Positions 4,196-38,372 of a stretch of DNA of 45,361 nucleotides are shown here, piece after piece. Source of the stretch: a virus. The stretch is taken from positions 1-45,361 of IMG/VR virus record IMGVR_UViG_3300050821_003741. One strand, given 5' to 3'. The position numbers and the translations under genes were made by a program. Under the pieces are notes generated by a model. It was not told the DNA's origin. It did no database searches and saw nothing but the letters and a program-made list of their open reading frames with translations. Position 1 is the stretch's first letter, and the number at the start of each line of letters is the position of its first letter.

Positions 4196-4699
4196 ATGGA
4201 AGGTTCTGCCTGGACCTCGGAGACGTTGAAAGAATATCTTGATCGGGCTCATATGGATTTGCGCCAAGAAATAAACCAACGCTTTGCCGATCTAGATAGG
4301 GGGGTAAAACTGGCTTTCGAGGCGCAGAAACTTTGGGTTGACCAATCATTCGAGGCGGCGGACAGGGCGATTCTTAAGGCGGAGGTGGCCGCTGAAAAGC
4401 GGTTTGATAGCATCAACGAATTCCGGGCGGTGTTGGGGGATCAGCAGAAGAATTTCATGCCCCGGAGTGAGGTCTTTGTCATTGAGAAAGCGGGAGCGGA
4501 AAAGCTTGAATCGTTGCGGATTCAAGCGGAAATTACGCATCAGTCCATTTTTGAAAAGATCGAAACATTGTCGGTGATGATAAAAGCGGCCCAGGCGGGA
4601 AAAAAGGGGTTGGGGGATGGGATGACGTTGGTTGTGGCGGGGGTGGGGGTTGTAATATCCATCGGCACTTTTTTAATGCTGATGTGGCGCGGAAAATGA
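4196..4699 (+). CDS. Coiled-coil protein with C-terminal membrane anchor
   Basis: 167 aa. A long helical region of alternating charge includes 'EAADRAILKAEVAAEKRFDS' and 'INEFRAVLGDQQ', followed by one hydrophobic helix near residues 143-163 (TLVVAGVGVVISIGTFLMLM) and a short basic end. Tail-anchored coiled-coil proteins with an 'INEFR..L.DQ' segment are frequent in tailed phages and of unknown function. The ATG directly follows the upstream stop. Confidence 0.7.
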   Translation: MEGSAWTSETLKEYLDRAHMDLRQEINQRFADLDRGVKLAFEAQKLWVDQSFEAADRAILKAEVAAEKRFDSINEFRAVLGDQQKNFMPRSEVFVIEKAGAEKLESLRIQAEITHQSIFEKIETLSVMIKAAQAGKKGLGDGMTLVVAGVGVVISIGTFLMLMWRGK

Positions 4700-34027: not shown

Positions 34028-34056
34028 TTGCGGAATATCCAAATAGGATATACAAT
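34028..34056 (+). promoter_or_regulatory. Early operon promoter (sigma-70 type)
   Basis: TTGCGG (34028-34033), a 17-base spacer and TACAAT (34051-34056). The bases 34040-34059 match 18/20 with those at the second promoter (37273-37292), CAAATAGGRTATACAWTTTG, supporting function. It directs the operon starting at 34134. Confidence 0.7.
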
Positions 34057-34073
34057 TTGAGTAGAAGATACAA
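34045..34073 (-). promoter_or_regulatory. Possible divergent promoter for the minus-strand gene
   Basis: On the minus strand, TTGTAT (34073-34068), 17 bases and TATCCT (34050-34045) make a weak sigma-70-like promoter overlapping the early promoter back to back. Both could not be bound at once, so a switch is possible. Confidence 0.3.
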
Positions 34074-34074
34074 G

Positions 34075-34130
34075 AGCCCTTGCGAGGGCGCGGCGACGGG
34101 AGCGAAAACCCCGAAGGCCAAAAGGAGACT
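34075..34130 (+). ncRNA. Two-hairpin leader element, copy A
   Basis: Hairpin GCCCT-TGCG-AGGGC (34076-34089), then CGGG (34097-34100) pairing with CCCG (34110-34113), then AAAAGGAGA. The same arrangement with near-identical second hairpin and ribosome site is found at 34811-34867. Probably a translational control or mRNA-stability leader for the gene at 34134. Confidence 0.5.
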
Positions 34131-34133
34131 CAG

Positions 34134-34280
34134 ATGTCAAGCTCGACCAGGAAACCGAATCAACCCACCAAACAAATCCGTTCTAAACCCCAAAAAGTTT
34201 CACGGAAACAGGCCATGCTTTCGACGGTCTGCGGACGCGCATTCCTGCGCGAAAACGGATATCTGAAAGGAGGAAAATAG
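34134..34280 (+). CDS. First early-operon protein (48 aa)
   Basis: Basic product MSSSTRKPNQPTKQIRSKPQ then 'RKQAMLSTVCGRAFLRENGYLKGGK'. Strong AAAAGGAGA site after leader copy A. Codons 3-7 (34141-34152) contain GCTCGACCAGGA, perfectly complementary to the loop of the short transcript at 37294-37369. No family recognised. First-gene position and basic charge suggest a host-takeover or nucleic-acid-binding protein. Confidence 0.7.
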   Translation: MSSSTRKPNQPTKQIRSKPQKVSRKQAMLSTVCGRAFLRENGYLKGGK

Positions 34281-34668: not shown

Positions 34669-34874
34669 AAATCGTAGTGGAGGTGCGGACGGCGCGGCAC
34701 GGGTCGGTGAAATGGGAAATAGGGCATGAGGAATGGGATAAAGACCATCGGAAAGCCTTTTTAAATATATTGGCGGTTGTCGCTAAATCCCTGGCTGTAA
34801 AAAAGATTTCAGCCCCCGAGGGGGCAGGGAAACGGGAGCGATACCCCGAAAACCCAAAAGGAGAAAAACCATGA
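34665..34874 (+). CDS. Hypothetical early protein (69 aa)
   Basis: ATG 34665 overlaps the upstream stop. Begins MKIVVEVRTARHGSVKWEIG and ends with a Lys/Glu/Pro tail. The last 20 codons are encoded by leader element B (34811-34867), so the C-terminus is probably shaped by RNA structure rather than protein selection. Overlaps the DUF932 start by four bases. Confidence 0.6.
   Translation: MKIVVEVRTARHGSVKWEIGHEEWDKDHRKAFLNILAVVAKSLAVKKISAPEGAGKRERYPENPKGEKP
34811..34867 (+). ncRNA. Two-hairpin leader element, copy B
   Basis: Hairpin GCCCC-CGAG-GGGGC (34812-34825), then CGGG (34833-34836) with CCCG (34845-34848), then CC, AAAAGGAGA. The string ACGGGAGCGA and CCCCGAA are shared with copy A at 34096-34115. 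It precedes the DUF932 gene and lies inside the end of the previous reading frame. Confidence 0.5.
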
Positions 34875-35956
34875 AAACCGGAAGCTCGTTGCAGAAGTTG
34901 GCGGCAGAGTTGGAGCGTCAGCAGGAGAGTAAGCGGGACTTCATCGCGCCCACCACGGAGTTGGAGGTCGTGGCGCAATGGAATATCGATGGAGAAGATC
35001 GTGGCCCTTGTTTGAGGGTAAACGGGCATGGATTATTCCCGATCAATGATGTGGCCCACCAACAGATCGCGTCACGGGTCGGAATCCCTCAGAAGTATTA
35101 TGACCGGATGAAATTGGAGGCCCCTGGGCTGATGGTGGATAACGTGAACCATTGGTTCGGTGCGAAAAAAGAGAAGCAGATGGTACGGACCCTAGACGGG
35201 ACGGCGCGGGCGTTTCTGAGTGATCGGTATCGGCCCCTGGATAACCTGGATATGGCGACGGCGGTATTGCCCATCCTGGGAAAGATGGGGGTCAAGGTGG
35301 AATCCTCAGAACTGACCCAGAAGCGTCTGTATATCAAAGCCGTGACGCCGAAGGTCACGGCGGAGATTAAGAATGGCGATGTGGTACAGGCGGGGATCAT
35401 CATCAGTAATAGTGAGGTCGGGCTGGGGTCCGTGAAGGTAGAACCCCTGGTATTCCGTCTGGTCTGTCTCAATGGGCTGATCGTCAATGATCATGCGATG
35501 CGAAAGTATCACGTGGGACGTTCCGGGGCGGAGGGTGATATGGCCGCGGAATTCTTCCGGGACGAAACCCGCCAGGCGGACGATAAAGCGTTCTGGATGA
35601 AGGTGCGGGACGTGGTGGCGGGCGCGTTCAACCAAGACGTGTTCGGGCGGATCGTGGAGCGGATGAAAGAAGCCACGGAGAGGATCATTGATGTGGACGT
35701 GGTTAAAGTGGTGGAAGTCGTGCGGCGCGACCATGCGTTGAATGACGATGAGCGGTCCGGCGTACTTCAACACCTCATCAAGGGCGGCGATCTGACGCAG
35801 TATGGGCTGTTGAACGCCGTGACACGGACCAGCCAGGACGTGCCGGATTATGACCGGGCAACGGAATTAGAGCGGACCGGGGGCGATATCTTGGCGATGA
35901 GTGGTGGCGAATGGGAAGCGTTCCTGAACATTGCCGAACGGACGAAACGCGATTGA
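34871..35956 (+). CDS. DUF932 protein
   Basis: 361 aa. DUF932 pattern: 'QQIASRVGIPQKYYDRMK' near residues 63-80, 'RAFLSDRYRPLDNLDMATAVLPIL' near 113-136, 'GIIISNSEVGLGSVKVEPLVFRLVCLNGLI' in the middle and 'LNDDERSGVLQHLIKGGDLTQYGLLNAVTRTSQ' at the end. The family is found in phages and plasmids with recombination genes; its biochemical role is unsettled. Strong AAAAGGAGAAAAACC site and leader B upstream. Confidence 0.87.
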   Translation: MKTGSSLQKLAAELERQQESKRDFIAPTTELEVVAQWNIDGEDRGPCLRVNGHGLFPINDVAHQQIASRVGIPQKYYDRMKLEAPGLMVDNVNHWFGAKKEKQMVRTLDGTARAFLSDRYRPLDNLDMATAVLPILGKMGVKVESSELTQKRLYIKAVTPKVTAEIKNGDVVQAGIIISNSEVGLGSVKVEPLVFRLVCLNGLIVNDHAMRKYHVGRSGAEGDMAAEFFRDETRQADDKAFWMKVRDVVAGAFNQDVFGRIVERMKEATERIIDVDVVKVVEVVRRDHALNDDERSGVLQHLIKGGDLTQYGLLNAVTRTSQDVPDYDRATELERTGGDILAMSGGEWEAFLNIAERTKRD

Positions 35957-35964
35957 GTGACCCA

Positions 35965-36019
35965 TGCCGGGGACTAAACATCCCCGGCAGTAAACGACGG
36001 CCCGGTGGGAAGTCCGGGC
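35965..36019 (+). other. Intercistronic double hairpin
   Basis: TGCCGGGGA (35965-35973) with TCCCCGGCA (35981-35989), a perfect 9-bp stem with a 7-nt loop, followed by GCCCGG (36000-36005) with CCGGGC (36014-36019). No T-run follows, so it is not a classical terminator. It may protect the DUF932 message or control the next gene. Confidence 0.55.
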
Positions 36020-37061: not shown

Positions 37062-37262
37062 ATGACAGTTAAATATCTATGGATAGCGGAAAATGCCGAC
37101 GGAAAAAATGCGCAAAAATACGCGGTAGACGATAAGGGGCAAGCCATGCTGATAGCGCTAATGGAAGGGCGGGGCGTGTGGTTTAATTATATCGAGGGGG
37201 AACGAATCCCGAGTGAGTGGTTCCCGTACCTGGAATTTATGGAAATGCTGGAGGGGGATTGA
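37062..37262 (+). CDS. Hypothetical early protein (66 aa)
   Basis: AGGGGGCTAAT precedes the ATG. 'MTVKYLWIAENADGKNAQKY' and an aromatic-rich 'GVWFNYIEGERIPSEWFPYL'. Its stop codon sits inside the -35 box of the promoter at 37259, so the two signals overlap. Confidence 0.62.
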   Translation: MTVKYLWIAENADGKNAQKYAVDDKGQAMLIALMEGRGVWFNYIEGERIPSEWFPYLEFMEMLEGD

Positions 37263-37287
37263 CAAATTATTGCAAATAGGGTATACA
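37259..37287 (+). promoter_or_regulatory. Strong sigma-70-type promoter upstream of recT
   Basis: Perfect -35 TTGACA (37259-37264), 17-base spacer, -10 TATACA (37282-37287). Bases 37273-37292 match the early promoter core 18/20. The start site would be near 37294, directly before GCTCGACCAG and a terminator. Confidence 0.82.
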
Positions 37288-37293
37288 TTTTGG

Positions 37294-37369
37294 ATGCTCG
37301 ACCAGAGTAAAAAAATTCCGATTCTGTGAAGCGCGCCTCCTCCTGGTCGAGCGGGCGCGCTTCTTTTTT
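37294..37369 (+). ncRNA. Short promoter-to-terminator transcript (sRNA or attenuator leader)
   Basis: Between the promoter at 37259 and the terminator at 37328-37369 lie only about 75 transcribed bases, with no reading frame. Its first bases, GCTCGACCAG (37296-37305), are complementary to CTGGTCGAGC (37343-37352) in the terminator loop. The loop bases 37341-37352 are perfectly complementary to 34141-34152, just inside the first early gene. It may be a trans-acting RNA or a recT attenuator; neither is shown. Confidence 0.55.
37328..37369 (+). terminator. Rho-independent terminator between promoter and recT
   Basis: A 10-bp perfect stem pairs GAAGCGCGCC (37328-37337) with GGCGCGCTTC (37354-37363) around a 16-nt loop, then six T. 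It lies before the recT ribosome site, so recT expression needs read-through or antitermination. Confidence 0.85.
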
Positions 37370-37385: not shown

Positions 37386-38372
37386 ATGACGAATGGTAAA
37401 GACGGTGGGAATATTAAGCCTGTGGCGGCGACGGGGGTGTTTTCGTTGGTCCCGAGAACGTATCAAGAAGCGGAGAGCTTGGCAAAGTTGATGGCGGAAA
37501 GCGATATGGTCCCGAAGGATTATAAAGGGAAACCGGGAAACGTGTTGATCGCGGTACAGATGGGTTTGGAGTTGGACCTCAAGCCCATGCAAGCCATTCA
37601 AAATCTGGCGGTGATCAACGGTCGTCCGGCGATCTTTGGCGACCTTGGAAAGGCGATCTTGTTTTCTAAGGGATGCAAAATCGACCAAGACGATATCGAG
37701 ATCGTCAAGAAAAACAAGCGGGCGCGATGCAAGATCACCCGACCGGACGGTCAAGTGATTGAGCGGACCTTCGGAGAAGACGATGCGCGAACGGCGAAAT
37801 TGTGGGGGAAGGCGGGGCCATGGACGGATTACCCATGGCGGCAAATGTCTTGGCGGGCCTTTTGGTTCGCGGCGCGGGACGCGGCGGCGGATATGCTCAA
37901 GGGTGTGTCGGGCGTCGAAGAGGTGATTGATATTGACCCGGATAAAATTATCGACACCGAAACCGTGAAGGACGAAGGACCGAAGCGGGCCAGCGAAAGT
38001 GTGCCGCCCCCGGCGATTGAAACGAAGCCTGACGCGGTGGAGATCAAACCGTCCCCGGAGGTGGCCCCGCCTGAAACGGCGTTGCCCGAGTTGCCAGCGG
38101 AAAGCTCGGAGGCGAAGGATGCGCCAGTGGGAAATATAATTGCGGTGGTCGGGGTGGTGGCCGACATTCAATATAAACCGCTGGGCGAAAAGGACAAATG
38201 GGATTATCTTATTAAAGTGATGGACGCCCAAGGGCCAGTGTATTTGCATACCACAAGCACAGATATGGCAAAGGTCTTCCATACGGCGCGGCATGCGAAG
38301 AAAACGGTGGTAGCCCATTTCAGGATCGAGGGGGCGCGAAATGAAGTCTGCGACGTTACCCCTGGGGTCTAA
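37386..38372 (+). CDS. recT: RecT-family recombinase
   Basis: 328 aa from ATG 37386 with AAAGGGGG upstream; an in-frame GTG at 37326 would start inside the terminator and is rejected. RecT-like core: 'SLAKLMAESDMVPKDYKGKPGNVLIAVQMGLELDLKPMQAIQNLAVINGRPAIFGD' in parts (residues 27-82) and 'WRQMSWRAFWFAARDAAADMLKGV' near 157-180. It would anneal single strands with the exonuclease encoded next. The C-terminal 140 residues hold a Pro/Glu-rich linker and an extra beta domain. Confidence 0.85.
   Translation: MTNGKDGGNIKPVAATGVFSLVPRTYQEAESLAKLMAESDMVPKDYKGKPGNVLIAVQMGLELDLKPMQAIQNLAVINGRPAIFGDLGKAILFSKGCKIDQDDIEIVKKNKRARCKITRPDGQVIERTFGEDDARTAKLWGKAGPWTDYPWRQMSWRAFWFAARDAAADMLKGVSGVEEVIDIDPDKIIDTETVKDEGPKRASESVPPPAIETKPDAVEIKPSPEVAPPETALPELPAESSEAKDAPVGNIIAVVGVVADIQYKPLGEKDKWDYLIKVMDAQGPVYLHTTSTDMAKVFHTARHAKKTVVAHFRIEGARNEVCDVTPGV

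Follow-up and report, generated by a model that had tools for sequence, protein, structure and literature searches.

A putative cis-acting attenuator before a phage recT gene, with a terminator loop complementary to the transcript's own 5' end

Phage P4 CI RNA and P1 C4 RNA are short leader RNAs of phages, in each of which one segment complements sites in early transcripts, and hok is a type I toxin mRNA with a sequestered Shine-Dalgarno sequence. In the type I toxin mRNA aapA3, the Shine-Dalgarno sequence is sequestered within the same RNA, with the fold changing during transcription (PMC6733600). pil1 of Streptococcus gallolyticus is a leader-peptide attenuator, in which a short 5' ORF is followed by an intrinsic terminator and the position of the ribosome sets read-through (PMC3894217). 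IsrK of the Gifsy-1 prophage has short terminated and read-through forms, a small ORF and alternative cis and trans pairings; its cis pairing involves a downstream ORF, and in trans it activates translation, with antQ as the outcome (PMC4825925).

Here, we examine a short leader in IMG/VR virus record IMGVR_UViG_3300050821_003741 (positions 1 to 45,361; this whole stretch is the window below). We consider it slightly more likely than not that this element forms the leader of the recT operon and would act mainly in cis, as a transcription attenuator. The basis in hand consists of promoter and terminator sequences, interlocked repeats, predicted competing folds, the recurrence of such leaders before recT and covariation in one pair of relatives.

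Anatomy and predicted folding of the recT leader

The recT-like single-strand annealing gene (37386-38372, plus strand; phrog_561, E 1.5e-38) lies 3' of an intrinsic terminator, its ATG at 37386 following the T6 tract. Further upstream is a sigma-70-type promoter (37259-37287, plus strand), in which a -35 element TTGACA (37259-37264) and a -10 element TATACA (37282-37287) are separated by a 17-nt spacer. The predicted transcription start, A37294, is also the A of an ATG, which may open a leaderless mini-ORF, MLDQSKKIPIL* (37294-37329, plus strand), whose UGA touches the terminator stem. The terminator itself (37328-37369, plus strand), identified by sequence and folding, has a perfect 10-bp stem (GAAGCGCGCC, 37328-37337; GGCGCGCTTC, 37354-37363), a 16-nt loop (37338-37353) and T6. 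A first-pass annotation of this DNA had described a near-perfect promoter with a start near 37294 and a perfect 10-bp terminator with a 16-nt loop; the sequence bears out both sets of coordinates, the start as a prediction. As in an attenuator, promoter, short leader and intrinsic terminator thus precede the first structural gene, judged from sequence.

The loop contains the segment UCCUGGUCGAGC (37341-37352, plus strand), 12 nt of which pair with the first early ORF (see below) and 10 nt of which, 37343-37352, are perfectly complementary to the 5' strand of the same RNA, GCUCGACCAG (37296-37305, plus strand). Because the loop also complements the transcript's own 5' end, two inverted repeats interlock; exact 10-mer inverted repeats with short spacers number four in the whole 45-kb window, and two of the four are this interlocking pair. 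Shuffling the loop against the first 45 nt gives p 0.0003, uncorrected for the hand-picking of this site in the first pass. The earlier statement that the 5' end mimics the proposed target holds, 37296-37305 (GCTCGACCAG) being identical to 34141-34150, while the self-complementarity with the loop had gone unnoticed.

When the growing transcript is folded, the helix between 5' end and loop is the minimum-energy fold for RNAs ending at 37349-37357, and from 37358 onwards the terminator takes over, with predicted energies of -20.3 versus -30.9 kcal/mol; attenuators have such a geometry. In the attenuator that we propose, RNA polymerase starting at about 37294 would meet the intrinsic terminator ahead of recT, and the terminator loop would be antisense to the RNA's own 5'-terminal translation start; because of this relation, ribosome and loop could each occupy the start, but never both together. 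At a nascent length of 56-64 nt, the helix of 5' start and loop would be the most stable predicted fold, until the 3' arm has emerged and the terminator wins. Since these two folds would compete, a ribosome on the 5' start, or one translating the leader ORF into the hairpin, could shift the choice between stopping and reading through into recT. The start site, translation of the leader ORF, the direction of the switch and its signal are those that we infer. The predicted helix engages the terminator loop and not a terminator arm, so that a pseudoknot is possible, in which the pairing would exist beside the terminator and not oppose it; in the window, where the linkers are 5 and 1 nt long, a 10-bp pseudoknot would be a tight fit.

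Leaders upstream of other recT genes

RecT relatives show up to 55% identity to the RecT of the window; neither for the window (best RecT 55%, portal 55-56%) nor for its leader was a close relative found. Four other recT loci carry a long-loop terminator behind promoter-like sequence: L006 (= L175), L159, L171 (= L173) and L122. The loop of L006, UAUUUCUCCCAA, has a 12-nt match to UUGGGAGAAAUA, the 5'-terminal Shine-Dalgarno region (shuffle p 0.00005 against the first 45 nt); in L159, CUUUUCUCCC matches GGGAGAAAAG over 10 nt (p 0.0008, same comparison); and in L171, UCCCUUCCAAG matches CUUGGAAGGGA over 11 nt (p 0.0001). In all three, the loop complement is the Shine-Dalgarno sequence of a small 5' ORF that runs through the terminator, and no sequence near a start codon, the leader's own 5' start excepted, complements the loop over 10 nt or more. 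In L122, whose RecT is the closest (55%), the elements follow in the same order and, as in the window, an ATG lies at about +1; the pairing is weak (GGGGAU, 6 nt, or 8 if wobble is allowed; p 0.22), so that this locus is counted for its layout alone, and near start codons L122 has no loop complement of such length. Its leader ORF also runs through the terminator, and the terminated leader has no stop codon in any of these four loci. None of the four, all distant relatives, has a second loop target near a start codon comparable to that at 34141 in the window. Cis pairing is the shared theme, because the loops of L006, L159 and L171 complement only their own 5' start near start codons.

The leaders of L006 and L159 are homologous. 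Their register was set by hand according to the helices, because automatic alignment displaces the loop by one or two bases; in this register, 10/10 pairs between start and loop are kept, with two double changes, as are 12/12 pairs of the terminator stem, with four double changes. This one homologous pair provides the covariation support. The leader peptides differ between relatives, without conservation, and therefore it is the RNA, not the peptide, that is kept. As other recT phages keep the layout with different letters, the element is probably a built-in on/off switch more than a separate regulatory RNA. Between leader start and terminator, L006 (about 4395-4430) and L159 (about 105-140) also contain a hairpin with a GAAA loop and, after it, AAAGCUCUA, an arrangement that recalls boxB/boxA antitermination signals.

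A scan of 1.87 Mb of phage DNA for terminator-like hairpins with a loop of 9 nt or more returned 249 after removal of redundancy, and each loop was compared with the upstream 120 nt. Complementarity of at least 10 nt was rare, being seen for four of these long-loop terminators, where mismatched pairs gave an expectation of 0.55. Immediately 5' of recT lie three of them, namely those of L006 (= L175), L171 and the window, which was the starting point of the analysis and counts as non-independent evidence; the remaining case, L188, amounts to an A/T-rich hairpin extension. The L159 leader came from a separate, recT-specific scan. Long-loop complementarity specific to recT is thereby suggested, and is put no more strongly because the loci were gathered around recT.

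Most recT loci are without such a leader. Among 91 distinct recT upstream regions, those of the leaders above aside, no hairpin has more than 9 Watson-Crick pairs in a row. Such a leader was absent from DUF932 relatives (43-51%), from both RecT matches in one species-genome scan and from the further recT loci returned by class-wide phrog_561 searches, and among 25 larger records with portal relatives (only 55-56%), this RecT occurred solely in two loci already known. A pattern built from L006 and L159 matched these two alone; the leaders of L006, L171 and L122 had no DNA match in the phage collection, the promoter-core pattern none in IMG/VR, and no Rfam family reached its gathering score in the window or the four relative loci. 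The exact motif GCTCGACCAG..CTGGTCGAGC gave 22 matches in IMG/VR, which were discarded as unrelated, all being GC-rich and without promoter or T tract.

The early region and alternative readings

A promoter core, CAAATAGGRTATACAWTTTG, overlooked in the first-pass annotation, has exactly two occurrences in the window, one before the early operon and one before recT. The sole sequence to share 18/20 bases with the recT version, CAAATAGGGTATACATTTTG, is the early promoter core (34040-34059, plus strand), against 0.03 chance matches expected, and both transcripts carry GCUCGACCAG adjoining an AUG. The genes of the early region comprise a small basic first ORF, a DUF932 protein, RecT, exonucleases and a ParB-like protein. 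The first ORF (34134-34280, plus strand), identified from sequence and put through a family search, encodes a very basic product of 48 aa with no family match, which could be an RNA-binding protein; no homologue was found in four relative records. Its codons 3-6 contain a second copy of the 5' motif (34141-34152, plus strand), a possible trans target of the loop.

The early region has two further features. A 54-nt leader element, made of two tandem hairpins followed by a Shine-Dalgarno sequence, occurs twice with 74% identity, before the first early ORF (34075-34128, plus strand) and before DUF932 (34811-34864, plus strand); a pattern of the DUF932 copy had no match in IMG/VR. Directly 3' of the DUF932 stop, a Twister-P5 ribozyme candidate (35956-36017, plus strand) scores 34.7 bits (gathering 37.6; E 9e-5). 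Its pseudoknot strands appear swapped (CCC for GgG, GGG for CcC), a swap that would keep pairing and that the search model behind the 34.7 bits does not include.

The headline proposal of the first-pass annotation was a trans-acting RNA controlling the early operon, and the complementarity behind it stands: loop bases 37341-37352 pair over 12 nt with 34141-34152, starting 7 bases after the A (34134) of the ATG of the first early ORF. A terminated RNA of ~76 nt could thus act as an antisense, its loop binding codons 3-6 and blocking translation while its 5' end mimics the target. We consider this unlikely, even though the perfect match adjoins an ATG, the predicted duplex is stronger than that with the RNA's own 5' end (-25.9 versus -21.5 kcal/mol) and both transcripts would arise from promoters whose 20-nt core (18/20) is shared nowhere else in the window. 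The match is of moderate significance, uncorrected for the hand-picking of the site (shuffle p 0.016 for the whole sense strand, 0.0023 when loosely defined start regions are considered), the loop is predicted to be partly paired internally in the terminated RNA, and a comparable target is absent from L006, L159, L171 and L122. With no separate target in L006, L159 and L171, the relatives lend no support to the trans-acting headline, which may yet apply in this genome; the annotation's other option, a self-regulated attenuator of recT, is supported, as they keep promoter, 5' start and terminator with a complementary loop. The trans match, seen in this genome only, may have been added in this phage, may stem from duplication of a promoter-start module, or may be due to chance.

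A second proposal, which we also rate as improbable, is that a simple constitutive terminator insulates recT or lowers its expression, the complementarities being coincidence. Promoter and terminator alone would account for the anatomy, and the pairing in L122 is weak, but coincidence sits poorly with the shuffle p of 0.0003 here, with similar values in three other recT leaders and with the two double changes kept paired between L006 and L159. It is very unlikely that GCTCGACCAG is instead a DNA-binding site (operator) at 34141, at 37296 and, inverted, at 37343, with RNA pairing as a by-product: although the three exact copies all lie in or beside the two promoter regions, and the phage encodes ParB-like proteins, the distances to the two promoters are unequal (some 9 and 86 bases beyond the -10), one copy falls exactly in the terminator loop, and relatives keep the RNA complementarity with different letters. 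Least credible to us is a post-termination lock, in which 5' end and loop, once paired, would bar ribosomes from the terminated leader without any attenuator decision. The long loops of the relatives would leave room for a pseudoknot, and the leader ORFs of L006, L159, L171 and L122 run through the terminator; in the window, by contrast, the mini-ORF stops at the base of the stem, and the two linkers (5 and 1 nt) leave a 10-bp pseudoknot little space.

Beyond the cis attenuator itself, a wider generalization is doubtful but conceivable: a recurrent, sequence-independent class of phage leaders whose loop is antisense to their own translation start, here extended in trans, by way of a start motif present a second time behind a matching promoter, to the first early gene. 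If true, phages would gate recombination genes with a compact RNA switch that sets the ribosome against the terminator loop, a design recognizable by complementarity alone, without sequence conservation, which may therefore be widespread and overlooked.

Comparison with described leader RNAs

Unlike P4 CI and P1 C4, the leader described here has a single possible target, 3.2 kb upstream, and no immunity role is seen. Against the curated Rfam covariance models of P4 CI, C4 and IsrK, neither the window nor the four relative loci reached the gathering score. The masking of a start region by pairing within the same RNA, in a fold that would change during transcription, resembles aapA3 (PMC6733600) and hok, from which the locus differs in being a recT leader, with no antisense antitoxin seen by eye and with small ORFs that are not obvious membrane toxins.

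With pil1 (PMC3894217), the leader shares a short 5' ORF and an intrinsic terminator, the control by the ribosome that we propose here having been shown there. It differs from pil1 in that the terminator loop complements the ORF start and in that no sensor of an amino acid or of repeat length was seen. A run of control codons of the trp type is absent from the mini-ORF MLDQSKKIPIL, and the peptides of the relatives are unconserved. Similarity to IsrK (PMC4825925) extends to a phage RNA with terminated and read-through forms, a small ORF and alternative cis and trans pairings; here, in contrast, the loop pairs with the RNA's own 5' end, the element precedes recT and Rfam gives no match. In the openly available parts of the literature on pil1, IsrK, P4 CI and P1 C4, a terminator loop antisense to the 5' start of the same RNA was not found. 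Among the mechanisms compared here, leader-peptide attenuators such as pil1, together with IsrK, come nearest to the recT leader.
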